Part shown: positions 17,315-41,850 of the stretch, piece after piece
Layout of the letters: every line of letters begins with the position of its first letter
How positions within the stretch are numbered: position 1 is the first letter of the stretch
Assembly (NCBI RefSeq): GCF_031458255.1
Contig: NZ_JAVDYC010000001.1
Coordinates: forward strand, 5,899,001-5,963,000
From: Catenuloplanes niger
GTDB taxonomy: Bacteria; Actinomycetota; Actinomycetes; Mycobacteriales; Micromonosporaceae
DNA length: 64,000 nucleotides
Reading direction: 5' to 3'
Notes under the pieces: model-generated
Database searches by the model: none
Seen by the model: the letters and a program-made list of their open reading frames with translations, nothing else
What the model was told of the DNA's origin: nothing
Translations under genes and position numbers: made by a program

Positions 17315-17420
17315 GAAGCGGATATTCCCGCTTCCGGCGTGGTCGCGCCGGGCATGCTCCCGCGGGTACCGGTCGGCCGCGGGCGGCCTCCCTGCACGTT
17401 CCGCACCCGGTCACCACGAC
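17315..17420 (+). repeat. 3'-end element, copy A (downstream of spo0M)
   Basis: One of five copies in this window. Conserved blocks in order: GATATTCCCGCTTCCGGC, TGCTCCCGCGGGTACCGGTCG, GGCCGCGGGCGGCCTCCCTG, then a weaker block ending GGTCACCACGA. It reads in the same direction as spo0M. Copy A is of the GGCCGCGGGCGGCC subtype and can fold CCCGCGG with CCGCGGG. Together with copy B it forms a large inverted repeat between two convergent genes. Confidence 0.85.
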
Positions 17421-17499
17421 CCCGCACCGCTCGCCGGCCCGGTCGTCGACGGGTGGCCCGCCAACGGCTTTCCTGGTGACCGGGTGCCGGGGTGACCGG

Positions 17500-17610
17500 G
17501 TTTCGTGGTGAGTGGTGCGGGACGTGCAGGGAGGAGCGCCAGCGACGACCGGTGCCCGCGGGAGCACTCGGGAAGTGCCCCCGCCGGAAGCGGGAATGTC
17601 TGCTTCTACA
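17500..17610 (-). repeat. 3'-end element, copy B (downstream of the LysE-type gene)
   Basis: Same element on the minus strand. On that strand its similarity to copy A begins at the LysE-type gene's own stop codon (TAG-AAGCAGACATTCCCGC), then GTGCTCCCGCGGGCACCGGT, a TCGCTGGCGCTCCTCCCTGC subtype block, and CGCACCACTCACCACGAA. It differs from copy A mainly in the third block. Confidence 0.85.
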
Positions 17611-18289
17611 GGGTTGCGGTGGCGAGTTTGGCGCCGAAGGTGACGAAGAGCGCGCCGATCGCGGTGGTGCCGGCGCGGGCCAGCACGTGGCGGCGGCGGA
17701 ACTGGGCGGCGAGGTAGCTGCCGGAGAGGATCAGCGCGGTCAGGTAGAGCGCGCTGCAGATCTGCACGATTGCGCCGAGCAGCAGGAACGACAGCTCCGG
17801 GTAGGCGTAGCCGGGGTCGACGAACTGGATGAAGAACGAGACGAAGAACAGGATCGCCTTCGGGTTCATCAGGCTGATCAGCAGCGCCTTGCGGAACGGC
17901 TGCGACACCGGCGGCTGGGCGGCCGGCGGCTGGGCGGCCGGCGGCTGCGAGGCCGGCGCCTCGGCGGCCGTCTCCGGTGAACGGCGGCGGCGCCACGCGG
18001 CGCGCAGCATGGACACGCCGACCCAGCAGAGGTAGGCGGCGCCCGCGTACTTGATCACCAGGAACAGCGGGGGATGGGCGCGGAGCAGCGAGGCGACGCC
18101 GGCGGCGGACAGCAGCATGAGCACGGCGTCGCCGAGGAAGACGCCGCACGCGGCCCGATAGCCGGTGGCGATGCCGCGACGGGCCGCGACGGAGAGCACG
18201 AACAGCGAGTTCGGTCCCGGCAGCAGGACGATCGCCACCGTGCCGAGCACGTAGGTCCAGAGGTCGGTCACTCCCAGCACGTCGTGCAT
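17606..18289 (-). CDS. LysE/RhtB-family amino-acid exporter (LeuE-like)
   Basis: A 227-aa inner-membrane exporter with about six hydrophobic segments. Family signatures are VAIVLLPGPNSLFVLSVAARRGIATGYRAACGVFLGD near the N-terminus and KALLISLMNPKAILFFVSFFIQFVDP in the middle. The cytoplasmic loop between them (about 115-140) carries an ASQPPAAQPPAAQPPVSQP repeat coded by a 15-bp tandem repeat, absent from typical members. The second of two adjacent ATGs is used, because GGAGGG lies at proper spacing. The start overlaps the upstream gene's TGA, so it is co-translated with the PNPOx-GNAT gene. Confidence 0.87.
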   Translation of the reverse strand: MHDVLGVTDLWTYVLGTVAIVLLPGPNSLFVLSVAARRGIATGYRAACGVFLGDAVLMLLSAAGVASLLRAHPPLFLVIKYAGAAYLCWVGVSMLRAAWRRRRSPETAAEAPASQPPAAQPPAAQPPVSQPFRKALLISLMNPKAILFFVSFFIQFVDPGYAYPELSFLLLGAIVQICSALYLTALILSGSYLAAQFRRRHVLARAGTTAIGALFVTFGAKLATATL

Positions 18290-19536
18290 CATGCGCCCTC
18301 CGGGCGGTGCGCCCGAAGCCGGTCCCGCAGTGCGGCACGTGCGCTCGGCCACTCCTCGTCGGTCATCGAGTAGATCACGGTGTCCCGCCAGGTGCCGTCC
18401 GCGCGCTGTTTGTGCCGGCGCAGCACGCCCTCCCGGGTCGCGCCGAGGCGCTCGATCGCGCGTTGTGACCGTACGTTCAGGTTGTCGGTCTCCCACGCCA
18501 CCCGGACCGCGCCCAGTTCCTCGAACGCGCGGGTGAGCAGCAGCAGTTTCGACTCGGTGTTCGCGCCGGTGCGCCAGTGGCTCTTCGCGAAGTACGTGTG
18601 CCCGATCGCCACCGTGCGGTGCCGTTCCTCGATGTCGTAGTACGACGTGGTGCCGATGACCGCGCCGGTCCGCGCGTCACGCTGCAACCACGGCACGGTC
18701 GGCGTCGCGGCCAGCCGGTTGCGCAGGTAGGCGCGCATCTCGTCGAGCGTGCGCGGCGCGCGGACCGGCAGGTGCTCCCAGATCTCCGGGTCGCCGCACG
18801 CCTCCAGGAGGTCGGCCGCGTGCACCAGGTCCAGCGGCTCCAGAACCACGTGCTCGCCGCGCAGCGTCACCGGCGTCTCCCACGCGCCGCGTGCCGGGCG
18901 CAGGTAGTCCGGCACCGGTACGGTCAGCGCCTCGTCCGGCTCCGGCAGGCCCCGGACCCGGTGCAGCGGCAGCACGCCGGCCCAGTGCGGCAACGTCTCG
19001 TCGCCCGGCTCCTCCTCGCCGACGCCGTGCGCGCGGATCTTGGCGGACACCTCGGTCAGCGGCAGGGCCAGCACGGTGGTCTGGCTCAGCTCCTTCTTCG
19101 TGCCGGGCCGGCTGTCCGCGGCCCGGCCCGCGGCCACCTTCTCGACCAGCGCGGTGAGCGCGCGTTCCTTCTCCGCCACGTCGGTGACCAGGACGGCGGT
19201 GCCGTGCGCGATCACCGACCGGTAGTTCGCGCTGTGGTTGAACTGCGAGCGCGCCAGCACCAGCGCGTCCAGCACCGTGACCTCGACACAGACGGCCAGG
19301 CCGGTGCCGCGGGCGGCCAGCATCGGGCGGCTGCCGGTGGAGCCGTGCAGGTAGAGCGTGTCGTCGACGCGGACGGCCAGCTGGGGAAGCACGCGCGGTT
19401 CGCCGTCGACGACGAACGCCATGTGCGCCTCGAAGGACTCGTCGAAGATCTGGTACGCCAGCTCCCGGTCGTAGCGAATCCGCCCCTTGTCGCGCAGCGC
19501 CGTGGTGCGATGAGTGGGTGAGAAGTCGTCCCCCAT
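18289..19536 (-). CDS. Fusion of a pyridoxamine-5'-phosphate-oxidase-like flavoprotein and a GNAT acetyltransferase
   Basis: A 415-aa protein. Residues about 10-195 are a PNPOx-like split-barrel flavoprotein domain (RIRYDRELAYQIFDESFEAHMAFVVDGEPRVLPQLAVRVDDTLYLHGS, then SQFNHSANYRSVIAHGTAVLV). Residues about 225-400 are a GNAT domain of the RimJ/RimL type (VTLRGEHVVLEPLDLVHAADLLEA; TNTESKLLLLTRAFEELGAVRVAWETDNLNVRSQRAIERLGATREGVLR). ATG at 19536 with GGAGG 9 nt upstream. It is divergent from a MocR regulator across a short region with a perfect palindrome, and followed with overlap by an amino-acid exporter; a MocR-controlled detoxification or export unit is inferred. Confidence 0.85.
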   Translation of the reverse strand: MGDDFSPTHRTTALRDKGRIRYDRELAYQIFDESFEAHMAFVVDGEPRVLPQLAVRVDDTLYLHGSTGSRPMLAARGTGLAVCVEVTVLDALVLARSQFNHSANYRSVIAHGTAVLVTDVAEKERALTALVEKVAAGRAADSRPGTKKELSQTTVLALPLTEVSAKIRAHGVGEEEPGDETLPHWAGVLPLHRVRGLPEPDEALTVPVPDYLRPARGAWETPVTLRGEHVVLEPLDLVHAADLLEACGDPEIWEHLPVRAPRTLDEMRAYLRNRLAATPTVPWLQRDARTGAVIGTTSYYDIEERHRTVAIGHTYFAKSHWRTGANTESKLLLLTRAFEELGAVRVAWETDNLNVRSQRAIERLGATREGVLRRHKQRADGTWRDTVIYSMTDEEWPSARAALRDRLRAHRPEGA

Positions 19537-19537
19537 G

Positions 19538-19566
19538 TTGGCAGACCTCCTTTGTACTAGTACAGT
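19538..19566 (+). promoter_or_regulatory. Promoter of the MocR gene with a 12-bp palindromic operator
   Basis: TTGGCA (19538-19543), 17-bp spacer, TACAGT (19561-19566). The perfect palindrome TGTACTAGTACA (19553-19564) overlaps the spacer and -10 box and also sits in the leader or promoter of the divergent PNPOx-GNAT gene. GntR-type regulators bind such TTGTACTAGTACAA-like sites, so autoregulation is likely. The predicted start site is within a few bases of the GTG at 19576, which suggests a leaderless mRNA. Confidence 0.65.
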
Positions 19567-19575
19567 AGGAAAACT

Positions 19576-20940
19576 GTGGCAGAACATTATCAGATCACCG
19601 GGTCCACGGCGGCCGAGATTTCCGGCAGCGTGGAGGCCGGCGTGCGCTCCGGCGACCTCGGGCCGGGCGCCGCGCTGCCGCCCGTCCGCTCGCTCGCCAA
19701 GGCGCTGAGCTGCAGCCCGGCGACCGTGGCCAAGGCCTACCAGACGCTGCGGCAGCGCGGCCTGATCGAGACCGCGGGGCGCAACGGCACCCGGGTGCGC
19801 GAGCGGCCGCCGATCGCCACGTCCGGCCGGTCCGCGCTGCGGCTGCCCACGCCGCCCGGCGCGCTCGACCTCTCCACCGGCGAGCCGGACCTCGCGTTGA
19901 TGCCCGCGCTCGGCCCGCGCCTGGCCCGGCTCGCGGCCGCGGAGTTCTCGCCGACCAACTACACGGACGCGGGCGCGCTCCCCGAGCTGGTCGAGCTGGC
20001 CCGGGTCCGGTTCGCCGGCGACGGCATCCCGGTCGACGACGCGGAGATCACCGTCACCAGCGGCGCGCTCGACGCGATGGAGCGGCTGCTCGCCGCGCAC
20101 CTGCGGCCCGGCGACAAGGTCGCGGTCGAGGACCCCGGCTGGGCCAACGCGCTCGACCTGATCGCGGCGCTCGGCCTGACCGCGGTGCCGATGCCGGTCG
20201 ACGACGAGGGCCCGACGGCGGACGGCCTGCGTGCCGCGCTCGCGTCCGGCGCCGGTGCGGCCATCGTCACGACCCGCGCGCAGAACCCGACCGGTGCCGC
20301 GGTCAGCTCCTACCGCGCGGCCGAGCTGCGATCGGTGCTGGCCGAGTTCCCGTCCGTGCTGCTGATCGAGGACGATCACGCGGCCGAGCTGGCACCGGTG
20401 ACGCTGCACGCACTGGCCGGTGCGACCGGATCGTGGGCGTTCGTCCGGTCGGTCTCCAAGCCGTACGGGCCGGACCTGCGCCTCGCCGTGGTGGCCGGCG
20501 ACGAGGCCACGATCGCGCGCGTGGCCGGCCGCATGCGGGTCGGCGCCGGGTGGGTGTCCACGCTGCTCCAGCACGTGGTGCTCTATCTGTGGCGGGACGA
20601 CGAGGTGATCAACGGGGTGATCCGGGCGCGGGACAGCTACGTCACCCGCCGTCTCGCGCTGCGCGCCGCGCTCAAGGCGCACGGGCTGGACGCGCGCGGG
20701 CGCACCGGGCTCAACGTGTGGGTCAGCGTGCCGGACGAGACGCGCGCGGTGGCGGCACTGCGGGACGCGGGGTACGTGGTGGCGCCCGGCTCGCTGTTCC
20801 GGCTCGCGTCGCCGCCCGCGATCCGGATCACGATCAGCCCGCTGGCCGAGGACGACATCCAGCCGCTGGCGGACGCGGTGGCCGCGGCGGCCGCGCTCGA
20901 CCCGGTGCCGGCCCGCTCGTCGATGGCGCTGACCGCGTGA
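19576..20940 (+). CDS. MocR-type regulator: GntR winged helix fused to a PLP aminotransferase-like domain
   Basis: A 454-aa protein. The winged-helix GntR domain is at about 5-70 (LPPVRSLAKALSCSPATVAKAYQTLRQRGLIET). A fold-type I aminotransferase domain extends from about 95 to 450. It contains ITVTSGALDAMERLLAAHLRPGDKVAVEDPGW, the TTRAQNPTGAAVS segment, the IEDDHAAEL Asp, and SVSKPYGPDLRLAVV with the PLP-binding lysine. MocR proteins use PLP or amino compounds as effectors. No separate ribosome site; GTG start next to the promoter. Likely regulates itself and the divergent fusion gene and exporter. Confidence 0.9.
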   Translation: MAEHYQITGSTAAEISGSVEAGVRSGDLGPGAALPPVRSLAKALSCSPATVAKAYQTLRQRGLIETAGRNGTRVRERPPIATSGRSALRLPTPPGALDLSTGEPDLALMPALGPRLARLAAAEFSPTNYTDAGALPELVELARVRFAGDGIPVDDAEITVTSGALDAMERLLAAHLRPGDKVAVEDPGWANALDLIAALGLTAVPMPVDDEGPTADGLRAALASGAGAAIVTTRAQNPTGAAVSSYRAAELRSVLAEFPSVLLIEDDHAAELAPVTLHALAGATGSWAFVRSVSKPYGPDLRLAVVAGDEATIARVAGRMRVGAGWVSTLLQHVVLYLWRDDEVINGVIRARDSYVTRRLALRAALKAHGLDARGRTGLNVWVSVPDETRAVAALRDAGYVVAPGSLFRLASPPAIRITISPLAEDDIQPLADAVAAAAALDPVPARSSMALTA

Positions 20941-20976
20941 CGAAATCTGTCGTACCGGTGGGGTAGACACTCCGGT

Positions 20977-21624
20977 ATGCAGACGGCTGCCCCTTTCGTT
21001 CCCGCGTCCGCGTCGAGCATCGCGGAGCTGCGCGCCGCCGCCCCCGGCTGCCGGGGCTGTGAGCTGTGGGAACCGGCCACCCAGGTGGTCTTCGGCCGCG
21101 GTGACGAACACGCCAAGGTGATCTTCGTGGGCGAGCAGCCCGGTGACGTCGAGGACCAGAAGGGCCTGCCGTTCGTCGGCCCGGCCGGCCACCTGCTCCG
21201 GCGCGCGGTCGACGACGCCGGCCTGCCGGTCTCCGACCTCTACATCACGAACTCGGTGAAGCACTTCCGGTTCGAGCGGCGCGGTGCGCGGCGCATCCAC
21301 AAGACGCCGGACCAGCAGCACATCACCGCCTGCCACCCGTGGCTGGTCAGCGAGTTCGCGCAGCTCCGGCCGTCGCTGGTGGTGCTCCTGGGCGCGACCG
21401 CGGCCAAGGCGGTGCTCGGCCCGTCGTTCCGGGTCACCCGGTCGCGCGGCCAACTGCTGCCGTGGCCGGCGTCCGCGCAGCACCCGGAGGACTTCCCGAG
21501 CGACCACGAGGCGACGGCGCTGGCCACCATCCACCCGTCGGCCGTGCTGCGGGCCGACGACCGGGAGGCGGCGTACAACGGCCTGGTCGCGGACCTGAGG
21601 GTGGCGGCGGGCGCGCTGACATGA
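20977..21624 (+). CDS. udgX: UdgX-type uracil-DNA-binding glycosylase
   Basis: A 215-aa member of the uracil-DNA glycosylase superfamily. Motif A is GEQPGDVEDQKGLPFVGPAG (residues 52-71). The diagnostic UdgX insertion, RRGARRIHKTP, follows at 101-111. In mycobacterial UdgX the histidine of this loop (here His108) attacks the sugar and leaves the protein covalently bound to the abasic site. Motif B is ATIHPSAVLR. Fe-S ligand candidates are Cys25, Cys28 and Cys119. The fourth position holds His96 (NSVKHF) where family 4 enzymes have Cys. A role in marking or sheltering uracil lesions is inferred from family. Confidence 0.9.
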   Translation: MQTAAPFVPASASSIAELRAAAPGCRGCELWEPATQVVFGRGDEHAKVIFVGEQPGDVEDQKGLPFVGPAGHLLRRAVDDAGLPVSDLYITNSVKHFRFERRGARRIHKTPDQQHITACHPWLVSEFAQLRPSLVVLLGATAAKAVLGPSFRVTRSRGQLLPWPASAQHPEDFPSDHEATALATIHPSAVLRADDREAAYNGLVADLRVAAGALT

Positions 21625-21636
21625 TCTCGTGAGGCG

Positions 21637-22893
21637 ATGAGCGTGACTGTGTCCGTCGGCGGGGTGCAGCGGCGCACGCTCGCGCTCCTGGTCGCCACGC
21701 AGATAATCGGCGGGATCGGGGTGGCGATCGGCATCACGGTCGGCGCGCTGCTCTCCGCGCGCATGGCCGGCGTGGGCCTGTCCGGCCTGCCCGGCAGCGG
21801 CGCGGTGATCGGCGGCGCGCTGCTCGCGATCCCGGTCACCCGGCTCGTGCAGGCGCGCGGGCGGCGGCCGGGCATGGCGCTGGCGTACCTGGTGGGCGCG
21901 CTCGGCGCGGTGCTCGTCGTGCTCGCGGCCGTGGCGGACTCCGTACCGCTGCTGTTCCTGGGCATGTTCCTGTTCGGCGGCGGCACGGCGGCGAACCTGC
22001 AGGCGCGGTACGTGGCGGTGGACCTCGCCGCGCCCGCGCGCCGCGGACGGGACCTGTCGCTGGTGGTGTGGTCGGCCACGATCGGGTCGGTGGCCGCGCC
22101 GAACCTGGCCGCCCTCGCGGACCGGGCCGTGACCGGGCTGCACCTGCCCACGCTGAGCGGTGCGTTCGTGGTCAGCGGCGTGGCGTTCGCGCTGGCGGCG
22201 CTGCTGTTGACCGGTCTTCTCCGACCGGATCCGCTGCTGCTCGCCCGCACCCTCGACGGCTCCGCGGCTCCCGATCCCCGCCGGCCCGCCGGTGTGCGGG
22301 CCGGCGCGCGCGTGATGGCCCGGCTCCCCGACGCCCGGCTGGCGGTCGCGGCCGTCGCCACCGGTCACCTGGTGATGGTCGCCGTGATGTCGATGACACC
22401 GGTCCACCTGGGCGAGGGGCACGCCGACGCGGACCTGCTGCGCATCGTCGGCATCGTGCTCAGCGTGCACATCGCCGGCATGTACGGCCTGTCCCCGGTC
22501 ACCGGCTGGCTCGCCGACCGGTACGGCCGCCGGCCCGTGATCATCGGTGGGCTGGTGTTGCTCATCACGGCATGCGCGGTCGCCGGTACGGCCGGGCACG
22601 ACACCCCGCGGCTGACGCTCGGCCTGGCGCTGCTCGGACTGGGCTGGTCGGGCACGATGGTGGGTGGCTCGACGCTGCTCTCCGAGTCCGTCCCGGCGAC
22701 CGGCCGGCCCGCGGTCCAGGGCCTGTCCGACCTGGTCATGGGCGTTGCCGGCGCGGGCGCGGGCGCACTCAGCGGCGCGGTCGTGGCGCTGGCCGGATAT
22801 GGCACGCTGACGGTGCTGGCCGCGATGGCCGCGCTGCCGGTGCTGGCGCTAGCGTTGCGGGCCAGGAACGCTGCTTCATCCAAGGAGACGTGA
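21637..22893 (+). CDS. MFS transporter
   Basis: A 418-aa protein with about twelve hydrophobic segments, an arginine-rich loop between TM2 and TM3 (VTRLVQARGRRPGM) and a second such loop in the C-terminal half (GWLADRYGRRPVIIGG), both typical of major facilitator superfamily carriers. The start ATG lies 12 nt after the udgX stop. The ACG-TGA end is followed directly by the DUF3046 GTG, so the three genes probably form one transcript. Substrate unknown; drug or metabolite efflux is likely by general resemblance only. Confidence 0.85.
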   Translation: MSVTVSVGGVQRRTLALLVATQIIGGIGVAIGITVGALLSARMAGVGLSGLPGSGAVIGGALLAIPVTRLVQARGRRPGMALAYLVGALGAVLVVLAAVADSVPLLFLGMFLFGGGTAANLQARYVAVDLAAPARRGRDLSLVVWSATIGSVAAPNLAALADRAVTGLHLPTLSGAFVVSGVAFALAALLLTGLLRPDPLLLARTLDGSAAPDPRRPAGVRAGARVMARLPDARLAVAAVATGHLVMVAVMSMTPVHLGEGHADADLLRIVGIVLSVHIAGMYGLSPVTGWLADRYGRRPVIIGGLVLLITACAVAGTAGHDTPRLTLGLALLGLGWSGTMVGGSTLLSESVPATGRPAVQGLSDLVMGVAGAGAGALSGAVVALAGYGTLTVLAAMAALPVLALALRARNAASSKET

Positions 22894-23094
22894 GTGCGGC
22901 TGACAGATTTCTGGCAGCGGATGGACGAGGTTTTCGGCGCGGGCTACGCGCCGAGCCTCGCGAGTGATCAGGTGCTGACCACGCTGGGTGGCCGGACCGT
23001 GCGGGAGGCGCTCGACTCGGGCGTGGCCACCGTCGTGGTCTGGCGGGCCGTTTGTGCTGCTTATCCCGATCGGGTGCCCGCGAAGCTGCGCTGA
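22894..23094 (+). CDS. DUF3046 protein
   Basis: A 66-aa protein, (M)RLTDFWQRMDEVFG.GYAPSLASDQVLTTLGGRTVREALDSGV..VVWRAVC..YPDRVP, which is the complete DUF3046 pattern. This small actinobacterial family of unknown function is found just upstream of recA in many genomes, as here. GTG start immediately after the MFS stop, with CAAGGAGA about 5 nt before it. Confidence 0.9.
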   Translation: MRLTDFWQRMDEVFGAGYAPSLASDQVLTTLGGRTVREALDSGVATVVVWRAVCAAYPDRVPAKLR

Positions 23095-23095
23095 A

Positions 23096-23143
23096 TAGAA
23101 CACCCGTTCGGGCGTGTCGTGTGGATCTCGTACATGTGTTCGG
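23096..23143 (+). promoter_or_regulatory. Two LexA (SOS) box candidates upstream of recA
   Basis: GAAC-ACCC-GTTC at 23098-23109 keeps both half-sites of the actinobacterial SOS box TCGAAC-N4-GTTCGA. A weaker GTAC-ATGT-GTTC lies at 23130-23141, exactly 32 bp (three helical turns) downstream. recA of actinobacteria is normally LexA-controlled at such a site. Confidence 0.75.
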
Positions 23144-23284
23144 CTATCGTGCGTTCCCGGGTAAGGGTTCGGCATCGGCGGCCCCCGGAGGCTGTTTTTG
23201 TCATACCCAGCGCCTAGCGTGTTGCGCGTGACGAAAGGTTCTTCGAAGACGCCCGCGAAGTCGGCGAATGTAGGGGTGGGGTCA

Positions 23285-24331: not shown

Positions 24332-24346
24332 TAGCGAGCCGACGCG

Positions 24347-26903: not shown

Positions 26904-26915
26904 GGGGAGGCGGCG

Positions 26916-28753: not shown

Positions 28754-28755
28754 CA

Positions 28756-28853
28756 AAATCGATATTCCCGCTTCCGGCGGGTCCGGTCCCGCATGCTCCC
28801 GCGGGCACCGGTCGGCCGCGGGCGGCCTCCCTGTCAGCCGGGTGGGTGGTCAC
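28756..28853 (+). repeat. 3'-end element, copy C (immediately after rny)
   Basis: Begins 3 nt after the rny stop with AAATCGATATTCCCGCTTCC, then CATGCTCCCGCGGGCACCGG, TCGGCCGCGGGCGGCCTCCC, and ends GGGTGGGTGGTCACC. Same strand as rny. The CCCGC-TTCCG-GCGGG hairpin is intact in this copy. Confidence 0.85.
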
Positions 28854-29070
28854 CCCCGCGATGTCCGCGCCGGCCCTGGCCGGTGGCGCGGCCGGCGGAT
28901 GGCGGGCGCAGGGACTGGTCGCCGCACGCGGCCTCGTTGCCAGCCGGGTGGGGTCGATGTCCGCGCCCGGCCTGGCCGGGTGGCGCAGTCGGCGGATGGC
29001 GGGCGCAGGCACTGGTCGCCGCACGCGGCCTTACTGCCGGTCGGGTGGGTGGTCACTCCGGCGATTCTCG
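28835..29070. repeat. ~95-bp degenerate tandem repeat after rny
   Basis: Two and a half imperfect copies of a unit running from CAGCCGGGTGGG through GATGTCCGCGCC and GGCGGATGGCGGGCGCAGG to ACTGGTCGCCGCACGCGGCC. The unit's start coincides with the tail block of element copy C, so the array may have grown from the element's end. The rest of this 517-bp gap holds no gene. Confidence 0.75.
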
Positions 29071-29201
29071 CGGTGCTTCACCGTAGCCGACGCGGTGCCC
29101 CACCGCAGCCGACGCGGTCGGCGGATCGTGGGCACCGGCCGGCTCGGACGTCAGTCAGTAGGCCTGGCCATTCCCGCGGTCGCCGGCCCGGCGGTAAGCA
29201 G

Positions 29202-30185: not shown

Positions 30186-30186
30186 G

Positions 30187-34340: not shown

Positions 34341-34342
34341 CG

Positions 34343-34430
34343 GCTGATATACCCGCTTCCGGCCGATCCGGTCCCGCACGCTCCCGCGGGCACCGGTCGT
34401 CGCCTGCGCTCCTCCCTGCGGGAACCGTGG
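34343..34430 (+). repeat. 3'-end element, copy D (immediately after miaB)
   Basis: Begins 2 nt after the miaB stop: GGCTGATATACCCGCTTCCG, then CGCTCCCGCGGGCACCGGTC, GTCGCCTGCGCTCCTCCCTG. Same strand as miaB. It belongs to the CGCTCCTCCCTGC subtype with copy B. Confidence 0.85.
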
Positions 34431-34951
34431 CCGCAAGACCACAACGCCGGCGCGAGCCCCGCTCACGCGGGGCTCGCCCCGCTCAGCCGACCACGCACGC
34501 CGGGCTTCCGGAGCCGCCCGGTTCCGGGACTGCCCGATCTTCGGGGCGGCCTAGTCGCCGGCCGCCCAGTCACCGGCCGCCTGGTCGCCGGAACCGTCCA
34601 GTCGCCGGGCTGCCCAATCTCCGGAGCCGTCCAGTCCTCGGGCCGCCGGTCGTCGGGCCGCCGGTCGTCGGGCCGCCGGTCGTCGGGCCGCCGGTCGTCG
34701 GGCCGCCGGTCGTCGGGCCGCCGGTCGTCGGGCCGCCGGTCGTCGGGCCGCTGGTCGGCTTGGTCGCCGGGCCGCCGGTCGTCGGGTCGCTGGTCGCCGG
34801 GCCGCCGGTCGGCTGGTCGTCGGACCGGATGGTCGCCGGACCGGATGGTCGCGGAGGCCGTTGCCGGCGCGGCGCAGGGTGGACGGGAGCGGGGCGAAAT
34901 TTCGGCTTATGGCGCCATCGGGTGCGCCGGGGCCGTGGACGGGCCATGAAA
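34431..34951. other. Repeat-filled intergenic gap between miaB and DUF349
   Basis: No gene seen. Apart from the 15-bp array it consists of GTCGCCGGGCCGCCGGTCG-like variants that look like decayed copies of the same unit. Confidence 0.6.
34636..34758. repeat. 15-bp tandem repeat, 8 copies
   Basis: CGGGCCGCCGGTCGT repeats head-to-tail from 34639 with no variation until the eighth copy at 34744. A perfect microsatellite-like array with no spacers. Strand-slippage is the obvious origin. Confidence 0.95.
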
Positions 34952-34995
34952 ACGCCTTCGGGGGTGCGCCGCGCACGGCGTACCCCCGAAGGCGG
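34952..34995 (-). terminator. Strong intrinsic terminator of the DUF349 gene
   Basis: A 13-bp perfect stem (CGCCTTCGGGGGT / ACCCCCGAAGGCG) continues into a 6-bp inner stem closed by a CGCA tetraloop. On the minus strand it is followed by TTTTC. It lies 13 nt past the DUF349 stop. Confidence 0.9.
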
Positions 34996-35007
34996 TTGAT
35001 CTGGCTG

Positions 35008-36216
35008 TCAGCCGGCCTGCTCGGCGAGCTTGAGGAACTGCTGCTTGCTCTCCAGCGCCTTCTCCGCCTCACGGATGCGCTTGGCGTCACCGGCGGCCTT
35101 CGCCCGCTCCAGGCGCTGCTCGGCCTCGGCGACCTGGTCGCGCATCTGGGCGAGCAGCGGGTTGGCGGACGGCTCGGTGCGGCGCCACGCGGAGTCCATC
35201 GCCTGGCGGAGCTTGTCCTCGATCGCGCGCATGCGGCGGTCGAGACTCGCCATGTTCTCCCGGGGGACGCGGCCGATGTCGTGCCACTGGCCCTGGATCT
35301 CGCGAAGCTTGTTCTGCGCGCCCTTCGGGTCGGCGTCGACGTCGACCGCCTCGGCCTCGGCCAGCAGCGCCTGCTTGCGCTCCAGGTTGCCCTTGAGCTC
35401 GGCGTCGCGGGCGGAGAAGACCTCGCTCCGGCGCGAGAAGAACGCGTCCTGCGCGGCCCGGAACCGGTCCCACAGCCGCTGCTCCGCCTCCTTCGAGGCG
35501 CGGGGTGCGGCCTTCCACTGGGTCATCAGGTCCTTCAGCCGGGCGGCGGTGTCGGCCCAGTCCTCCGACGAGGAGAGCGCCTCCGCCTCCTTGACCAGGT
35601 CCTCCTTCGCGCCCTGGGCCTGCTTGCGCTGGCCGTCGAGCGTCGCGAAGTGCGCGCCACGGCGGCGGGTGAACCCGTCCCGCGCGGCCGCGAACCGCTT
35701 CCACAGCTCACCGTCGGTCTTCTTGTCGATCCCGCGAATGGTCTTCCACTCGTCGAGGATCTCCTTGAGGCGGTCACCCGCGGCCTTCCACCCGGTCGAC
35801 TCGGCGGCGATCTTCTCCGCCTCCTCGACCAGCGCGACCTTGCGGGCCTGCGCCTCGGTCCGGGCGGTCTCCTTCGCGGCCTTGGCCGCGGCCGCGCTCT
35901 CCTCGGCCTGCGCGGTCAGCCGGTCGAGGCGGGCCGCGAGCCCGTCGACGTCGCCGACCACGTGCGCCTCGGCCAGCTCGGCCCGCAGCCGCTTCACGCT
36001 GGCCAGCGAGTGTGCCGCGTCGGCCGCACCGGACTTCAGCCGCGCCTCGATGAGGTCGACCTCGGTAACCTTGTCCGCAAAGCGGCGCGCGAAGTGGGCG
36101 AGGCCCTCCTCGGGCGTTCCCGCCTGCCAGGACCCGACCACGCGCTCGCCATCGGCGGTCTTGCAGTAGACCGTGCCGTCGGCGTCCACCCGACCGTAGG
36201 CGGTCCAGTCGCTCAT
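35008..36216 (-). CDS. DUF349 repeat protein
   Basis: A 402-aa all-helical, highly charged protein. An N-terminal beta segment (WTAYGRVDADGTVYCKTADGERVVGSWQAG) is followed by repeats of the DUF349 type, each with a W-K or W-x-x-I/A-G/P core (LKEILDEWKTIRGIDKKTDGELWKRFAAARDGF; LKDLMTQWKAAPRASKEAEQRLWDRFRAAQDAF; LREIQGQWHDIGRVPRENM). Function is not established; members are cytoplasmic and conserved across actinobacteria, and often adjacent to miaB/miaA as here. Long coiled coil from 90 to 130 and 350 to 400. Confidence 0.9.
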   Translation of the reverse strand: MSDWTAYGRVDADGTVYCKTADGERVVGSWQAGTPEEGLAHFARRFADKVTEVDLIEARLKSGAADAAHSLASVKRLRAELAEAHVVGDVDGLAARLDRLTAQAEESAAAAKAAKETARTEAQARKVALVEEAEKIAAESTGWKAAGDRLKEILDEWKTIRGIDKKTDGELWKRFAAARDGFTRRRGAHFATLDGQRKQAQGAKEDLVKEAEALSSSEDWADTAARLKDLMTQWKAAPRASKEAEQRLWDRFRAAQDAFFSRRSEVFSARDAELKGNLERKQALLAEAEAVDVDADPKGAQNKLREIQGQWHDIGRVPRENMASLDRRMRAIEDKLRQAMDSAWRRTEPSANPLLAQMRDQVAEAEQRLERAKAAGDAKRIREAEKALESKQQFLKLAEQAG

Positions 36217-36426
36217 CTGCCCATCCTCGTTCTTCCCGGCGCCGGAGGGAAAGCCAGTTTTCCTCCGGTCACCGCCACCGCGCAGTAGGTTGCCTATGAA
36301 CTTCTCCCGGCATTGTCACAGGTTCGCCCCCGTGTCCGTCGAGTGCCTGTTGACGACCGTGACCATACGGTGTTCTAGGTCGGCCGTGCGGCGGTTCCGC
36401 ACGCCCGTGCAGTTACCGTAGGTCGC

Positions 36427-37380
36427 GTGTCGTCACCCCCCGCATCCAGGGTCTTCCCCCGCAAGGGTCGTGTCGTGGCCGTGCTCGGCCCGACCGCGAC
36501 CGGAAAGTCGGATCTCAGCATCGCGCTGGCCGAGGCGCTCGGGGGAGAGGTGGTAAACGCCGACTCCATGCAGCTCTACCGGGGCATGGACATCGGCACG
36601 GCCAAGCTCACCGTGGCCGAGCGGCGCGGCGTGCCGCACCACGTGCTGGACATCTGGGACGTCGCCCAGCCCGCCGCGGTCGCCGAGTATCAGGCGCTCG
36701 CCCGCGCCGCGATCGACGACGTCCTGGCCCGCGGCCGGGTGCCGCTGCTGGTCGGCGGCTCCGGCCTCTACGTCCAGGCGGTTCTGGAGGAATTCGCCTT
36801 TCCGGGTACGTCGCCGGAACTGCGCGCGTCGCTGGAGGCGGAGCTGGCCGAGGTCGGGCCCGCGTCCCTGCACGACCGGCTGCGTGGGCTCGACCCGGTG
36901 GCGGCCGACGCGATCCTGCCCAGCAACGGCCGCCGGATAGTCCGGGCGCTGGAGGTCATCGCGCTGACCGGGAAGCCGTTCACCGCCTCGCTGCCCGACT
37001 CGCCCCGGCCGTACTACGACAGCGTGCGGATCGGCGTGGACCGGGACACCGCGGAACTCGACGCGCGGATCGCCCGCCGGGTGGACCTGATGTGGGAGCG
37101 GGGCCTGGTCGCCGAGGTCGCCGCGCTGCTGCCGGACGGCCTGCGCGAGGGCCGGACCGCGGGCCGCGCGCTCGGCTACCAGCAGGCGATCGACCAGCTC
37201 GACGGCGTCTGCACGGAGGCCGTGGCGCGGGAGCGGACCACGGCCGCGACCCGCCGGTTCGTCCGCCGGCAGCGCTCCTGGTTCCGCCGGGACGCGTCCG
37301 TGCACTGGCTGGACGGCGGGTCGGCCGATCTCGTGGATTCCGCGCTGCGGTTGGTGGATGTCCCGGTGGGTGCGGAATGA
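36427..37380 (+). CDS. miaA: tRNA dimethylallyltransferase MiaA
   Basis: A 317-aa enzyme that adds the isopentenyl group to A37 of tRNAs reading U-starting codons. P-loop GPTATGKS at 21-28. Also NADSMQLYRGMDIGTAK, HHVLDIWD, LVGGSGLYVQAV, RRIVRALEV and the C-terminal RQRSWFRRD. GTG start. Only 7 nt separate it from dapF. It supplies the substrate for MiaB. Confidence 0.95.
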   Translation: MSSPPASRVFPRKGRVVAVLGPTATGKSDLSIALAEALGGEVVNADSMQLYRGMDIGTAKLTVAERRGVPHHVLDIWDVAQPAAVAEYQALARAAIDDVLARGRVPLLVGGSGLYVQAVLEEFAFPGTSPELRASLEAELAEVGPASLHDRLRGLDPVAADAILPSNGRRIVRALEVIALTGKPFTASLPDSPRPYYDSVRIGVDRDTAELDARIARRVDLMWERGLVAEVAALLPDGLREGRTAGRALGYQQAIDQLDGVCTEAVARERTTAATRRFVRRQRSWFRRDASVHWLDGGSADLVDSALRLVDVPVGAE

Positions 37381-37387
37381 TGGTCCG

Positions 37388-38233
37388 GTGCAGTTCACCA
37401 AGGGCCACGGCGCCGGCAACGACTTCGTCATCCTCGAGGACCCGGACGGGCAGCTCCCGCTGACGCCGTCGCTGGTCGCGGCGCTCTGCGACCGGCACCG
37501 GGGCATCGGCGGCGACGGCGTGCTCCGGGTGGTCCGGACCGCGAAGCACCCGGAGGCGGTGGACCACGCGACCGACGCGGAGTGGTTCATGGACTACTGG
37601 AACGCGGACGGCTCGATCGCCGAGATGTGCGGCAACGGCGTGCGCGTCTTCGCCCGCTACCTGGCCACCTCCCGGCTGGTCGAGGGCGCGTCGTTCCCGA
37701 TCCTCACCCGCGCCGGGCTGGTCCGCGCCGCGATCGACGGCGACACCATCGCGGTGGACATGCCCACTCCGCGCCTCGGCGCCGCCGGTGCGGCCACGAT
37801 CGTGCCGCTGACGTTCCCCGGCACCGCGGTCGACGTCGGCAACCCGCACCTGGTCAGCGTGCTGCCGGACGGCGTCGGCCTGGACTCGCTGGACCTCACC
37901 CGGCCGCCCGGCTTCGACCCGGCGCTCTTCCCGGCCGGCGTCAACGTCGAGTTCGTGACGCCGGAGCCGCCGCTCGACGGCTTCGACCTGCACGTGCGCA
38001 TGCGCGTCTACGAGCGCGGCTCCGGCGAGACGCTGGCCTGCGGCTCCGGCGCGCTGGCGGTCGCGGCGGTCGCACTGCACGGCGCCGGCCTGGAGACCGG
38101 CACGGTCGCGGTCGAGCTGCTCGGCGGCCGCCTGACCGCCACCCGCACCGACGCGGGCTGGACGCTGGCGGGCCCGGCCGTCCTGGTCGCGACCGGCGAG
38201 GTCGACCCGCACGCGCTCACCCCGCTCGCCTGA
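37388..38233 (+). CDS. dapF: Diaminopimelate epimerase
   Basis: A 281-aa PLP-independent racemase converting LL- to meso-diaminopimelate for peptidoglycan and lysine. The two catalytic cysteines are Cys81 in EMCGNGVRVFA and Cys218 in ETLACGSGALA. The GTG at 37388 gives the family N-terminus VQFTKGHGAGNDFV; a longer frame from 37358 would overlap miaA by 23 nt and is not favoured. Confidence 0.95.
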   Translation: MQFTKGHGAGNDFVILEDPDGQLPLTPSLVAALCDRHRGIGGDGVLRVVRTAKHPEAVDHATDAEWFMDYWNADGSIAEMCGNGVRVFARYLATSRLVEGASFPILTRAGLVRAAIDGDTIAVDMPTPRLGAAGAATIVPLTFPGTAVDVGNPHLVSVLPDGVGLDSLDLTRPPGFDPALFPAGVNVEFVTPEPPLDGFDLHVRMRVYERGSGETLACGSGALAVAAVALHGAGLETGTVAVELLGGRLTATRTDAGWTLAGPAVLVATGEVDPHALTPLA

Positions 38234-38642
38234 GTCGACGCGATCAGGGCCGGCTCGCCGGGGCCGCGTTGCGCGGGGCTGGCCCGCTGGGCGCCGGGTC
38301 GTGCGGGGCTGGCCGGCTGGGCGCCGGCCTGCGCGGGGTTGGCTTGCCGGCGCCGGCGTGAGCCGGGGTGGCTTGCCGGGCGCGGACCGGCCTGCTGCTG
38401 GGGGTGAACCCGGCCCGGACCCGCGCGCAGACCGCCGCCGTGCTCGCCGAGATCACCGCCCGTGACCTCGCGCCGCGGGCGCTGCCGCAGAGCTTCGGCG
38501 AGAACGTGCTCCGCGACGCCCGTGACCTGGCCCCGGCCGCGCTCCGGCTCGGCCCCCGCCCGGGCGGCACGAGCGTCGAACCCGGGCGGCACGAGCGTCG
38601 AACCCGGGCGGCCACCGCCCGGCAGCCGGCCGGCGGGCCGCC
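38234..38642. other. Gap between dapF and the AraC gene, with a coding-like remnant
   Basis: The first 130 bp are GGCTGGC/GCGCCGG repeats. From about 38390 to 38560 a plus-strand frame reads TGLLLGVNPARTRAQTAAVL and continues as a plausible helical segment (ITARDLAPRALPQSFGENVLRDARDLAP), but it has no proper start and runs into Arg-rich repeat sequence. It may be the relic of a gene; not identified. Confidence 0.45.
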
Positions 38643-39551
38643 TCAGCCGCGGGCGGCCGCCCGGTAGCGGCCGGGGGCGGTGCCGTGGGCGCGGGTGAAG
38701 GCGCGGCTGAACGCGGGCACCGAGTGGTAGCCGACGCCGGCCGCGATCGCCTCGACCGACTGGTCCGTGGCGTGCAGGCGGGCGGCCGCCAGGTCCATCC
38801 GCCACTGCGTCAGGTAGGTGCCGGGACTCTGCCCGATGGCGGCCGGGAAGCGCCGGCTGAGCGTGGCCCGGGAGACCGCGGTCGCGGCCGCGAGCGTCCC
38901 GGTGGTCCAGTCCCGGGCCGGGTCGGCGTGGATGTGCTCCAGTGCCCGGCGGACGACCGGGTCGCCGAGCATGCCGAACCAGCTGCCGCGGTGGGCGGCC
39001 GCCCGGGTGGGCAGCCAGGCACGCAGCAACTGGATCAGCATGATGTCGACGAGGCTGTTCAGCACCGCGGTGGTGGCGATCTGCGGGCGGGACAGCTCCC
39101 GGCCGAGCATGCGGACGGTGTCGTCGCACTCGGACCCGGCGGGGACGTGCACGAGTTCGGGAAGCGCGAAGAGCAGCTGGGTCCGTACCGTGTGGTCGCA
39201 GTCGTAGACGATCGTGACGATCCGGACGTCGCCGGGCGCGGTGCCGACCCGGAGCGGCTCACCGGTCCGCTGGGACTGTGCGGTCGCCGCGCGGTCGCAG
39301 CCACCGCCGCGGGTGTCCGGCGAGTCGGCCAGCACGTGCGGGACCCGCGACGCGACCAGCACGACGTCCCCCGCGGCCAGCCGGACCGGCGGGTGCCCGT
39401 CGCGGATCAGCCACGCGTCGCCGGCGGTGACCGCGTGCAGTGCGGAGCCCGGCTCGTCGATGCCGACGGCCCAGTGCCCGCCCGCCTCCATCCGCGCGCC
39501 GAGCGAGCCGCGGACACCGGATACCTGCAGCACATCCGTCACCACGTCCAT
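38643..39551 (-). CDS. AraC-family transcriptional regulator with cupin sensor domain
   Basis: A 302-aa protein: an N-terminal cupin-like domain of the AraC_binding_6 style (SLGARMEAGGHWAVGIDEP; GDAWLIRDGHPPVRLAAGDVVLV) and a C-terminal double HTH at about 195-298 (WTTGTLAAATAVSRATLSRRFPAAIGQSPGTYLTQWRMDLAAARL; VEAIAAGVGYHSVPAFSRAFTRAHGTAPGRYR). It is divergent from the MDR oxidoreductase gene with 62 nt between them, so it likely controls that gene. Start uncertain; an in-frame start 48 nt upstream exists. Confidence 0.88.
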   Translation of the reverse strand: MDVVTDVLQVSGVRGSLGARMEAGGHWAVGIDEPGSALHAVTAGDAWLIRDGHPPVRLAAGDVVLVASRVPHVLADSPDTRGGGCDRAATAQSQRTGEPLRVGTAPGDVRIVTIVYDCDHTVRTQLLFALPELVHVPAGSECDDTVRMLGRELSRPQIATTAVLNSLVDIMLIQLLRAWLPTRAAAHRGSWFGMLGDPVVRRALEHIHADPARDWTTGTLAAATAVSRATLSRRFPAAIGQSPGTYLTQWRMDLAAARLHATDQSVEAIAAGVGYHSVPAFSRAFTRAHGTAPGRYRAAARG

Positions 39552-39613
39552 GAGGCAGAAGGATAACTTCCTGCGTCCGTTGAGCATCGACTGCCGCATG
39601 CGGGCTTCGTAGC

Positions 39614-40627
39614 GTGAACGACATGAACGACCACACGATGCGGGCGCTCGTCGCCACCGGGTACGGGGAGCCGGAGCGGCTCACGATCGCCGACCTGCCG
39701 GTCCCGCGCCCCGGACCGGGCCAGATCCAGGTGCGGATCGCCGCCGCGACCGTCAACCCGCCGGACCTGCACGCGATCTCGGGAGCGTTCGGCGACGCGC
39801 TGCCGCTGGCGTTCCCGTACGTTCCCGGCACCGAGTTCGCCGGCACCGTCACCGAGACCGGGGCGGGCGTGACCGCGTACCGCGTGGGTGACGAGGTGTT
39901 CGGCTCCGCGCTGCCCCGGCCGTTCGCACCGATCCTCGCGCATGTGCCGCGCCCGTCGCTGAGCACCGGCGCGCTGGCCGAGTACACGGTGTGCGAGGCG
40001 GACACCCCGTTGCTGGCGCACCGCCCGGCCGGCGTGCCCGCGGAGCAGGCGGCGGCGCTGGCGATCGCCGGTTCGACCGCGCAGGCGCTGCTGGACGTCA
40101 CGGAGGTGAAGCCCGGCGAGACCGTGCTGGTGATCGGCGCGACCGGCGCGGTCGGCACCACCGTGCTGCCGCTGCTGGTCGCCGCGGGCGCCCGGATCGT
40201 GGCGACCGCGGCCCGGGAGGCCGGCGCGACGCTGCTGCGCCGGCTCGGTGCCCACGAGATCATCGGGCACGACCCGGCGGAGTACCCGGCCGGTGTGGAC
40301 GTGGTGTTCAACCTGGTGCTCGAGGCCGGCCGGCTGCCGGACGCGGCCCGCGCGCTGCGGCCCGGCGGCCGGCTGGTGTCGATCGTCTATCCGGAGCCGA
40401 CCCCGGAGCAGGCCGGCCGCGACGACGTGCGGCTGCACTTCGTGTGGGACGTGGCCGGCGAGCACGGCGGCATGCGGCGCGTCGCGGAGGCGGCGGCCGC
40501 CGGCGAGCTGACGGCCGTGATCGCGGGCCGGTACCCCCTCACCGACGCGGTACGGGCGGTCGTCGACTACGCCCGTACGCACCCGCTCGGGAAGATCGTC
40601 GTGACCGGGACGGAGACCTCCGCGTGA
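39614..40627 (+). CDS. Zinc-independent MDR alcohol dehydrogenase / quinone oxidoreductase
   Basis: A 337-aa medium-chain dehydrogenase/reductase. GroES-like N-terminal half (LPVPRPGPGQIQVRIAAATVNPPDLHAISG; PYVPGTEFAGTVTETGAGV) and a Rossmann half with the NADP-binding VLVIGATGAVGTTVLPLLVAAGARIVATA. The catalytic and structural zinc cysteine clusters are absent, as in QOR-type enzymes. Ends with GTGA overlap into the enoyl-CoA hydratase gene. ATG alternatives at 39623 and 39638. Confidence 0.88.
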   Translation: MNDMNDHTMRALVATGYGEPERLTIADLPVPRPGPGQIQVRIAAATVNPPDLHAISGAFGDALPLAFPYVPGTEFAGTVTETGAGVTAYRVGDEVFGSALPRPFAPILAHVPRPSLSTGALAEYTVCEADTPLLAHRPAGVPAEQAAALAIAGSTAQALLDVTEVKPGETVLVIGATGAVGTTVLPLLVAAGARIVATAAREAGATLLRRLGAHEIIGHDPAEYPAGVDVVFNLVLEAGRLPDAARALRPGGRLVSIVYPEPTPEQAGRDDVRLHFVWDVAGEHGGMRRVAEAAAAGELTAVIAGRYPLTDAVRAVVDYARTHPLGKIVVTGTETSA

Positions 40628-41562
40628 GCACCCTCGGCGTGACCCGGGACCGTGGTGTCGTCACGGTCGTCATCGACAACCCGCCGGTCAACGTGCTCAG
40701 CCTGCCGATGATGACCGAGCTGAGGACGCTCTTCGGCGCGCTGCGCGACGACGACACCGCCCGGGTCGTGGTGTTCGAGAGCGCGGACCCGGAGTTCTTC
40801 CTCGCCCACGTCGACATGACCCTGGCCGACGACCCGGATCTGGTCGCGGCCGCGATCGCCGGCGCGCCCGCGGGCCTCAACCTGTTCCAGGCGGTCGGTG
40901 AGGCGCTGCGCACGCTGCCGCAGGTCTCGATCGTCAAGCTCGCCGGGCTGGCGCGCGGCGGCGGCGCCGAGTTCGTCGCGGCCGCCGATATGACCTTCGC
41001 GGCGATCGGCCGGGCCGGGCTCGGCCAGCTCGAGGCGCTGGGCGGCATCGTCCCCGGTGGCGGCGGTACGCAGTACCTGCTGCACCGGACCGGCCGCAAC
41101 CGCGCGCTGGAGATCGTCCTCGGCGCGGACCTGTTCGACGCGGAGACCGCCGAGCGGTACGGCTGGGTCAACCGCGCGCTGCCGGCCGGCGAGCTGGACG
41201 CGTTCGTCGACCGGCTCGCCCGCAACATCGCCGACCTGCCGGAGGGCACGATCACCGCGATCAAGCACGCGCTCCCGCCGCATGACCTGGCCGCCGGCAT
41301 GCTGCGCGAGCACGAGGCGTGGGCCGGCCAGTTCGCCCGGCCCGCCGCCGACCGGCTGTTCCGTGCCGTCCTCGCGGCCGGGGCCCAGACCCGGGACGGC
41401 GAGCGGCACATCGAGGACCTGATGCGCGGTCTGGCGGAGCCGACCGCCGGTCAGCCGGAAGGCAGCCCGGCCGCCGGTCAGCCGGAAGGCAGCCCGGCCG
41501 CCGGTCAGCCGGAAGGCAGCCCGACCGCCGGTCAGCCGGAAGGCAGCCCGACCGCCGGATAG
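40624..41562 (+). CDS. Enoyl-CoA hydratase/isomerase-family protein with repeat-expanded C-terminus
   Basis: A 312-aa crotonase-fold protein: GVVTVVIDNPPVNVLSLPMMTEL, oxyanion-hole segment VKLAGLARGGGAEFVAAADMTFAA, and LEALGGIVPGGGGTQYLLHRTGRNRALEIVLGADLFDAETAERYGWVNRALP. The core ends near residue 273. The last 38 residues are four copies of AGQPEGSP[AT], coded by a 27-bp tandem repeat. Substrate unknown. Start GTG overlaps the MDR stop, so the pair is co-translated. Confidence 0.88.
   Translation: MSTLGVTRDRGVVTVVIDNPPVNVLSLPMMTELRTLFGALRDDDTARVVVFESADPEFFLAHVDMTLADDPDLVAAAIAGAPAGLNLFQAVGEALRTLPQVSIVKLAGLARGGGAEFVAAADMTFAAIGRAGLGQLEALGGIVPGGGGTQYLLHRTGRNRALEIVLGADLFDAETAERYGWVNRALPAGELDAFVDRLARNIADLPEGTITAIKHALPPHDLAAGMLREHEAWAGQFARPAADRLFRAVLAAGAQTRDGERHIEDLMRGLAEPTAGQPEGSPAAGQPEGSPAAGQPEGSPTAGQPEGSPTAG
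41446..41558 (+). repeat. 27-bp tandem repeat in the 3' end of the enoyl-CoA hydratase gene
   Basis: Four copies beginning GCCGGTCAGCCGGAAGGCAG at 41446, 41473, 41500 and 41527. Related but decayed GCCGGTCGCCGGACAG units continue past the stop codon to about 41720, so coding and non-coding parts look like one array. Confidence 0.95.
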
Positions 41563-41750
41563 CGAGCGGGAAACCGGTCGCCGGACGGCGAGAGAAGCCG
41601 GGTCGACCGGACAGCGGGAGGGGCCGGTCGCCGGACAGTGAGCCGGGAGCCCGGCCGCCGAGGAGCGTGACGGGCCGTCGCCGGGCAGCGAGAAGCGAGT
41701 CCGACCGCCGGACAGCGGGACGAGAGCGCCCCCTCGGGGTTCGTGGTGAC
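41563..41750. other. Decayed GC repeats downstream of the enoyl-CoA hydratase gene
   Basis: Variants of CCGGTCGCCGGACAGCGAG recur with irregular spacing. No gene seen in the 332-bp gap to the malic enzyme gene, which also holds element copy E. Confidence 0.55.
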
Positions 41751-41850
41751 CACCCGCTGACCGGCAGGGAGGCCGCCCGCGGCCGACCGGTGCCCGCGGG
41801 AGCACTCGGAACGCGATCACGCCGGAAGCGGGAAAATCTGGTTCGGCACG
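41750..41850 (-). repeat. 3'-end element, copy E (downstream of the malic enzyme gene)
   Basis: Minus-strand copy, reading in the same direction as the malic enzyme gene and starting about 45 nt after its stop: CCAGATTTTCCCGCTTCCGG, then GTGCTCCCGCGGGCACCGGT, CGGCCGCGGGCGGCCTCCCT, and a tail ending GGTGGTCACCACGAA like copy A. Confidence 0.85.

Follow-up and report, generated by a model that had tools for sequence, protein, structure and literature searches.

A dispersed repeat with a covarying hairpin at gene ends in Catenuloplanes and other Micromonosporaceae

Results

Five copies of one element follow genes in a Catenuloplanes niger locus

We analysed a stretch of 64,000 nucleotides (nt) of the Catenuloplanes niger genome (NZ_JAVDYC010000001.1, positions 5,899,001 to 5,963,000; hereafter the window, with positions counted from its first letter), in which a first-pass annotation had described a short element occurring five times, each time just 3' of a stop codon. 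All five copies were found at the places described, with their shared blocks in the same order. Two blocks, the head and the core, lie far above chance in the window. The head TTCCCGCTTCCGGC has 8 matches at no more than two mismatches against 1.14 expected, of which five are the copies (four exact and one with a single mismatch), and the core GCTCCCGCGGGCACCGGTCG has 5 matches at no more than three mismatches against 0.22 expected. The element is a family-wide dispersed structured repeat, present in multiple copies in several genera of the Micromonosporaceae.

The genes that the copies follow were assigned with Pfam as Spo0M, LysE, RNase Y, a radical-SAM/UPF0004 protein of the miaB type, and malic enzyme. 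Copy 1 (17315..17430, plus strand, nhmmer 103 bits) lies 3' of spo0M, whose stop is at 17241. Its head is at 17325-17338 and its core at 17356-17375, followed by hairpin arms at 17375-17379 and 17384-17388, CCCTGC at 17390-17395, and the tail GGTCACCACGA. Copy 2 (17485..17606, minus strand, 98 bits; head 17583-17596, core 17546-17565) lies 3' of the LysE gene and shares a single gap with copy 1, tail to tail, the two forming a 92-nt inverted repeat that is 77% complementary. Copy 3 (28755..28870, plus strand, 96 bits; head 28765-28778, core 28795-28814) follows rny, which converges on a transport-permease gene. Copy 4 (34343..34430, plus strand, 85 bits; head 34350-34363, core 34380-34399) has a tail of the GTGGCCGCAAGACC type and follows the miaB-type gene, which converges on a DUF349 gene. 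Copy 5 (41735..41845, minus strand, 110 bits; head 41821-41834, core 41784-41803, tail GGTCACCACGAA) follows the malic enzyme gene, which converges on an enoyl-CoA-hydratase gene.

The head starts about 9-11 nt from the stop of the LysE, rny and miaB genes, about 60 nt from that of the malic enzyme gene, and 83 nt from that of spo0M. The earlier figure of three copies starting within 3 nt of a stop holds when the less conserved leader is taken as part of the element, and not otherwise. Each copy does share the orientation of the gene before it, as had been noticed. The window's orientations prove nothing on their own, however, because convergent gaps, four in number, hold all five copies, and in such a gap a copy of either orientation follows a gene.

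Anatomy of the repeat

The element is about 105 nt long and consists of an A-rich leader, the head CCCGCTTCCGGC, a near-invariant core GCTCCCGCGGGCACCGG, a hairpin, the motif CCCTGCC, and a variable tail. The 102 full Catenuloplanes copies read TTCCCGCTTCCGGCG, a spacer of about 17 nt, TGCTCCCGCGGGCACCGGTCG, a hairpin segment of 12-14 nt, and CTCCCTGC, with a tail that fades near AAACCC. Palindromes within the element are GCATGC, CCCGCGGG and ACCGGT. Copies in other genera have a head of roughly CGTCCG and hairpin arms that are wholly changed yet still complementary. A genuine variant in Catenuloplanes, subtype B, retains the head and has a middle composed of GGGCAAACC, a long paired arm, and GGAGCCGG. 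A further 'subtype C' from a head scan turned out to be mostly chance matches, except for three copies in the sister genome G098, and was left uncounted.

The leader, upstream of the head, is A-rich on one strand and often contains GATCAAGATC. In the upstream 65 nt or so, GATCAA is present in 28 of the 66 copies from C. japonicus, 14 of 52 from other genera, 6 of 70 from the window's own genome (G000) and 3 of 34 from other sister species, compared with 8/641 and 3/160 in post-stop controls. The reverse motif TTGATC is found in none of 170 Catenuloplanes copies (the C. japonicus copy after rny counted twice) and in 4 of 52 from other genera.

Other sequences accompany some copies on the tail side. 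The palindrome CCCGAAATTTCGGGC, scored by its 11-mer CCCGAAATTTC, lies there in 15 of 127 Catenuloplanes copies against 2 of 780 background strands, and may be the second part of a larger unit. Tandem arrays of 97-nt units (28870-29072) and 15-nt units (34631-34834) lie on the tail sides of the rny and miaB copies, respectively, and sequence resembling the hairpin part of the rny copy repeats at 28921 and 29018.

Distribution across genomes

Searches of the genome and the family returned hundreds of copies in Catenuloplanes and homologues in other Micromonosporaceae genera. The source genome, a single contig of 9.74 Mb, contains the core 233 times at no more than two mismatches (reversed control: 3). 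At no more than one mismatch the core is found 221 times in this genome and 137, 154, 144 and 289 times in four other Catenuloplanes genomes. Elsewhere in the family, 18 of 349 genomes have one to three core matches at the same threshold, some of which are true homologues.

We then used two models, R1, a sequence model built from 19 copies, and R2, which includes the hairpin. R1 matches were obtained in at least 49 of 354 family genomes and at least 16 of 44 genera. R2 was run on 15 chosen genomes and gave counts from at least 3 (G132) to at least 149 (G000), with at least 64 in G033, 46 in G080, 42 in G082 and 32 in G319. These counts are lower bounds and absences are weak, since 10 candidates per genome were scored in the family search, up to 150 in the 15-genome search, and up to 14 in a sample of the order. 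The order sample comprised 249 genomes, including some of the same family, and was searched with stricter filters; the matches listed come from two Catenuloplanes only. Named loci with both head and core were found in C. japonicus only, by a search that may omit records very near the window's genome. Exact cores are unevenly spread on the G000 chromosome: loci L001-L014 extend over the first 1.31 Mb, and the 11 copies L020-L030 fall within 0.2 Mb at about 1.8-2.0 Mb.

The element had not been recognised in the first-pass annotation, and Rfam 15 likewise gave no match at gathering score in the window; for the stretch with copies 1 and 2 it returned low scorers only, with E up to 10 and far below gathering. 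A literature search, with subscription papers mostly outside its reach, returned no description of the element and no occurrence of five strings derived from the core.

Placement and polarity relative to stop codons

Gene positions were taken from a purpose-written codon-usage caller rather than from annotation, and some antisense cases may therefore be missed genes. The G000 sample comprises the window and two stretches of 400 kb each, 864 kb in all, together with 22 loci chosen by exact core, while the C. japonicus (G097) loci were found by exact pattern and are biased to well-kept copies.

The strict 3' placement seen in the window is strong at this larger scale. None of 127 Catenuloplanes copies lies inside a called gene; in other genera one of 52 does. 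There are 169 distinct Catenuloplanes copies with a head, and both neighbouring genes were called for 154 of these. Convergent gaps hold 108 copies; a further 27 are co-directional and sense, 17 co-directional and antisense, and 2 divergent. The 704 background gaps divide into 132 convergent, 440 co-directional and 132 divergent. The copies from other genera comprise 25 convergent, 15 co-directional antisense, 7 co-directional sense and 3 divergent, plus 1 at an edge and the 1 inside a called gene. The first-pass statement that the element always has the orientation of the upstream gene does not extend to this set: a same-sense gene lies upstream of 135 of the 154 copies, 17 copies are antisense to both neighbours, and 2 are divergent.

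Polarity of placement is stronger than convergent gaps would trivially produce. Of 84 single copies in convergent gaps, 67 have their head closer to a stop than their tail (p = 3e-8). Of the full-length ones in roomy gaps, with over 150 nt to spare, this is true of 31 of 32; the ratio is 41 of 43 with partial copies included and 12 of 12 for roomy copies from other genera. Among the full-length roomy copies, 25 heads but not a single tail come within 60 nt of a stop. Co-directional gaps were counted without the Catenuloplanes inverted-pair copies (9 sense and 9 antisense), while pairs in other genera were not separated. In these gaps the head is no more than 60 nt from its stop in 21 of 25 sense copies, whereas the tail is this close to the stop it faces in only 4 of 23 antisense copies (p = 7e-6). 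Because heads hug stops and orientation is even, the head belongs beside a stop, and sense orientation is not a rule in one-direction gaps. The tabulation supports the 3' placement described in the first-pass annotation and does not support its orientation rule. Same-sense distances from stop to head are below 30 nt in 88 of 147 cases, a tally that the C. japonicus copy after rny enters twice.

Some copies are arranged in inverted pairs, 30-1419 nt apart, and all 23 such pairs are tail to tail, including 9 in co-directional gaps. Three neighbouring pairs have the same orientation. By a model search that second ends could escape, the 169 distinct copies comprise 125 single and 44 paired copies.

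The strong preference for convergent gaps and the palindromic, near-invariant core are what would be expected of a DNA-level site at the ends of transcription units, similar to the sites of bacterial interspersed mosaic elements (BIMEs) for gyrase or nucleoid proteins, where a protein bound to the palindromes would relieve or bound supercoiling between convergent genes. Such a site does not predict an asymmetric element placed with polarity, nor a leader that is A-rich on one strand only.

One gene end stands apart from these copies. At L063:13455-13530, about 75 nt straight after a stop are nearly identical in five Catenuloplanes, far above other printed 3' regions; this is either a separate element in the 3' untranslated region (3' UTR) or a mis-called gene end.

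Covariation of the hairpin arms

Covariation of the hairpin arms lies above both shuffled and slid controls. In alignment A3 (25 copies, plain MAFFT) there are 25 compensated cells versus 8.3 in shuffled alignments, and the covariation score is 0.230 versus 0.103, with slid controls at no more than 0.07. Two of the five measures in A3 are not clearly above shuffles (6 versus 4.3 pairs with changes on both sides, and 15 versus 12.5 further pair types). Alignment A4 (52 copies, fitted to the model) has 68 compensated cells versus 20.9 shuffled, and all five variable-arm pairs are compensated. In 16 of its 52 rows, A4 contains genomic copies that were also used to build R2. The 36 A4 rows outside both A3 and the model show pairing at 166 of 172 arm cells, against 110 when shuffled, and compensation at 44 cells, against 12.2 when shuffled and never above 22. 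The outer pairs that adjoin the core (GGCA/TGCC) are unsupported, with 21/51 and 20/51 cells unpaired at two pairs in A4.

Other routes to a structure were discarded. The five window copies aligned alone gave a weak fold. A fold of the whole element as RNA was rejected, as no common minimum-energy fold and no excess stability were found; the middle hairpin alone survived, through cross-genus covariation. Two hairpin haplotypes dominated the mutual information computed on 102 Catenuloplanes copies, which was therefore not taken as evidence for pairing.

The covarying hairpin bears on two alternatives. In a double-stranded DNA site compensating arms would be needless, while the poor folding of the element as a whole, and wobble pairs without strand preference, fit such a site; taken with its conflict with the polarity of placement, we consider it unlikely. 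A family of small-RNA genes with their own promoters, independent of the upstream gene, would account for the covarying hairpin and for the free orientation in co-directional gaps. It would not account for the short stop-to-head distances, and no conserved -35 candidate is present before the head, where alignment columns 5-42 hold less than 0.6 bit each. We regard this alternative as very improbable.

Terminator-like hairpins beside the copies

Several copies in the window have a second hairpin nearby. An intrinsic-terminator-like hairpin without a clear T run was located by inverted-repeat search between the spo0M stop and copy 1 (17250..17287, plus strand), and a counterpart is present in the sister genomes G098 and G096. 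A terminator-like hairpin with 15-nt arms follows copy 4 (34448..34481, plus strand, from the same search), and a hairpin-like stretch is visible by eye in the sequence between the malic enzyme stop and copy 5.

No strong hairpin separates stop and head at 31 of 40 element-bearing convergent gene ends, many of these intervals being too short for one. Element-free convergent ends have a strong hairpin within 150 nt in 103 of 194 cases, versus 51 of 194 after shuffling. As evidence that the element replaces a terminator this comparison is only suggestive, because the compared windows differ in length. Hairpins with a T run are rare by a simple criterion, with 14 at the 194 convergent gene ends free of copies. 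The element itself resembles an intrinsic terminator as a GC-rich hairpin just past a stop, mostly between convergent genes. It differs in the lack of a T run, in its sequence-conserved core, and in the separate terminator-like hairpin that precedes or follows it at some gene ends.

Divergence between copies and signs of mobility

We compared two syntenic stretches in five genomes. By manual count, 13 of 14 G000 copies have a full or partial match 3' of the corresponding gene in at least two sisters, and the end of rny carries a copy, intact or altered, in each of the five Catenuloplanes compared. In C. japonicus the spo0M-LysE gap measures only 53 nt and contains a palindromic hairpin and no copy.

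At a shared gene end, recognised copies of different species resemble each other scarcely more, on average, than copies drawn from different sites. The comparison used 34 type-A copies at 13 gene ends, recognised at no more than three mismatches each in head and core, with broken or lost copies outside it. The 33 pairs at the same gene end are identical at 98.9% in the core, 96% in the head, 64% in the spacer and 63% in the tail; the corresponding values for 391 pairs at different sites are 98.4, 96.7, 61.6 and 57.4%. In these genomes, identity at fourfold-degenerate sites is 74-85%. One exception to the low likeness is the pair of rny copies in G000 and G096, which look inherited and differ once in the spacer. 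New copies replacing old ones, gene conversion, or a spacer that changes fast while the core stays fixed would each leave same-end copies about as unlike as strangers.

The core is kept in most copies. In the 864 kb of G000, 48 copies were found at 1e-3, and 47 of these have a head; 35 of the 47 have a perfect core, 5 have one or two core mismatches, and 7 have four to six. A profile search to E 10 added no weaker copies, so the conservation of the core does not rest on the recognition pattern alone. Whole copies in G000 are 76% alike on average and at most 91% (63 copies). In C. japonicus there are copy pairs 97-98% identical over the element (39 copies).

The first-pass annotation had held placement this strict to be unexpected of a randomly inserting repeat. 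That it speaks against a mobile repeat is not supported, given the near-identical copies of C. japonicus and the recognised same-end copies that are on average hardly more alike across species than unrelated ones. Both observations are instead as expected for a selfish repeat without function, resembling repetitive extragenic palindromes (REPs) or miniature inverted-repeat transposable elements (MITEs), whose transposase targets gene ends or whose copies survive where they are least harmful. Hairpin and core would then be signals for the repeat's own movement, possibly as single-stranded DNA. This explanation also fits the spread of copy number over 15 genomes, with 3 at one extreme and at least 149 at the other, the equal use of both orientations in co-directional gaps, and the tail-to-tail pairs, some of them in co-directional gaps, that resemble the ends of a composite unit. 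It sits less easily with the G000 copies, whose mean likeness is 76% among the 63 compared, while 40 of the 47 headed copies in the unselected 864 kb have no more than two core mismatches, which is unexpected of drifting dead copies. Nor does it explain why heads hug stops far more than tails.

A source of transposition was looked for with PF01797 (Y1_Tnp), which is absent from all five Catenuloplanes genomes; the same search was positive in 5 of 14 control genomes. Among 331 neighbouring proteins, no transposase was noticed by eye in the 14 largest clusters, for which no domain search was made. To judge by eye, the largest cluster consists of proteins like ABC-transporter ATPases; a cluster of 6 proteins is unassigned, and most others are orthologues across sisters. 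These negatives count against a selfish repeat, which overall we judge possible rather than probable.

Some copies have themselves received insertions. In G098, the copies after spo0M, rny and malic enzyme (L154-L155) have altered cores, and each passes at an identical position into one shared foreign sequence (CCAATGCCACTCAGC...), which looks as though the element were a preferred target of a second mobile sequence. An insert of about 60 nt (GTTCACTCC...) lies in the hairpin of two copies and between the head and core of a third (G098 LysE, G096 miaB and L042).

Comparison with known systems

REPs are imperfect palindromes of 20-40 nt with a 5' tetranucleotide signature, variable stems and fixed sequence signals. 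Like REPs and BIMEs, the element is short, forms hairpins, occurs hundreds of times between genes at their 3' ends, includes inverted pairs, and combines variable stems with fixed sequence signals. It differs in its length of about 105 nt, in its asymmetry and conserved core, and in the orientation of the head toward the stop, and the column table of Catenuloplanes copies contains no short palindrome with a 5' tetranucleotide. Identity with a REP system served by a REP-associated tyrosine transposase (RAYT) was rejected, because Y1_Tnp is absent from the five Catenuloplanes genomes. With MITEs the element shares its non-coding, multi-copy nature, a recent expansion in one species, and heads-outward inverted pairs; it differs in that terminal inverted repeats were not detected on each unit, most copies being single by the model used.

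Integron attC sites have fixed RYYYAAC/GTTRRRY boxes around a variable hairpin and lie directly after a stop in the gene's orientation. The element is similarly found straight after a stop with fixed boxes flanking a variable hairpin. The attC boxes themselves are absent from its consensus, and its copies lie scattered next to core genes, rny among them, instead of forming cassette arrays. Candidate structured RNAs from comparative genomics reportedly combine conserved sequence with a covarying hairpin, and in this the element is similar to Rfam-type structured RNAs, differing in the lack of a family match in the window. A resemblance of the reverse strand to a T-box was dropped, as there is no Rfam match on either strand.

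Discussion

The first-pass annotation had offered two suggestions, a role in the 3' UTR and a mobile sequence that targets gene ends; these are compatible, and either may hold. The explanation that we tentatively favour, and hold to be not far short of probable on the sequence evidence, combines them as a non-autonomous, once mobile repeat that is kept at transcript ends as a 3'-UTR element. The element would have spread as a non-autonomous mobile repeat, recently so in C. japonicus, and copies would have been retained where the transcript of the preceding gene has them at its 3' end. At such sites an incoming polymerase would meet head, core and hairpin, which would become part of the 3' UTR. 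Hairpin and core may act there as a transcript-end element, whether by terminating without a U run, by stabilising the 3' end or by binding a protein, and this element would insulate neighbouring convergent genes.

A number of observations weigh against this explanation. Polarity is weak in tight gaps, where the head is nearer a stop in 25 of 39 full copies, and other genera, with gaps of every size pooled, have it nearer in 17 of 25 convergent copies. Orientation in co-directional gaps is even, with 25 sense versus 23 antisense copies (18 and 8 among single Catenuloplanes copies, 7 and 15 in other genera). A pure 3'-UTR element should not show this evenness, nor the antisense lean in other genera. 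Folded whole, the element gains no stability over shuffled sequence (mean z about -0.3, 26 copies), and 66 of 102 Catenuloplanes copies have a hairpin variant that was judged poorly paired by reading. Wobble cells comprise 19 G-U and 29 A-C, and the folding strand, RNA or single-stranded DNA, is not told apart by them. No T run follows the hairpin, where the consensus is CTCCCTGCC. At 9 of 40 element-bearing convergent gene ends, a strong hairpin already lies between stop and head, and several gene ends have broken, truncated or lost copies in sister species.

A related proposal gives placement itself a larger role. Machinery independent of RAYTs would recognise 3' ends, either through the stop codon or through the nascent 3' end, and insert the element with fixed polarity; the copies would then serve the host as a 3'-UTR signal, and species would re-equip the same ends. 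We consider such a mobile transcript-end element conceivable, if doubtful.

The repeat has a covarying hairpin, matches no Rfam family in the window and reaches at least 16 of the 44 genera in its family; it marks gene ends with measurable polarity. If the element is mobile, it is a case of polar gene-end placement without a Y1 transposase. If it acts in the transcript, it would offer a handle on how messenger RNAs end and are protected in GC-rich actinobacteria.

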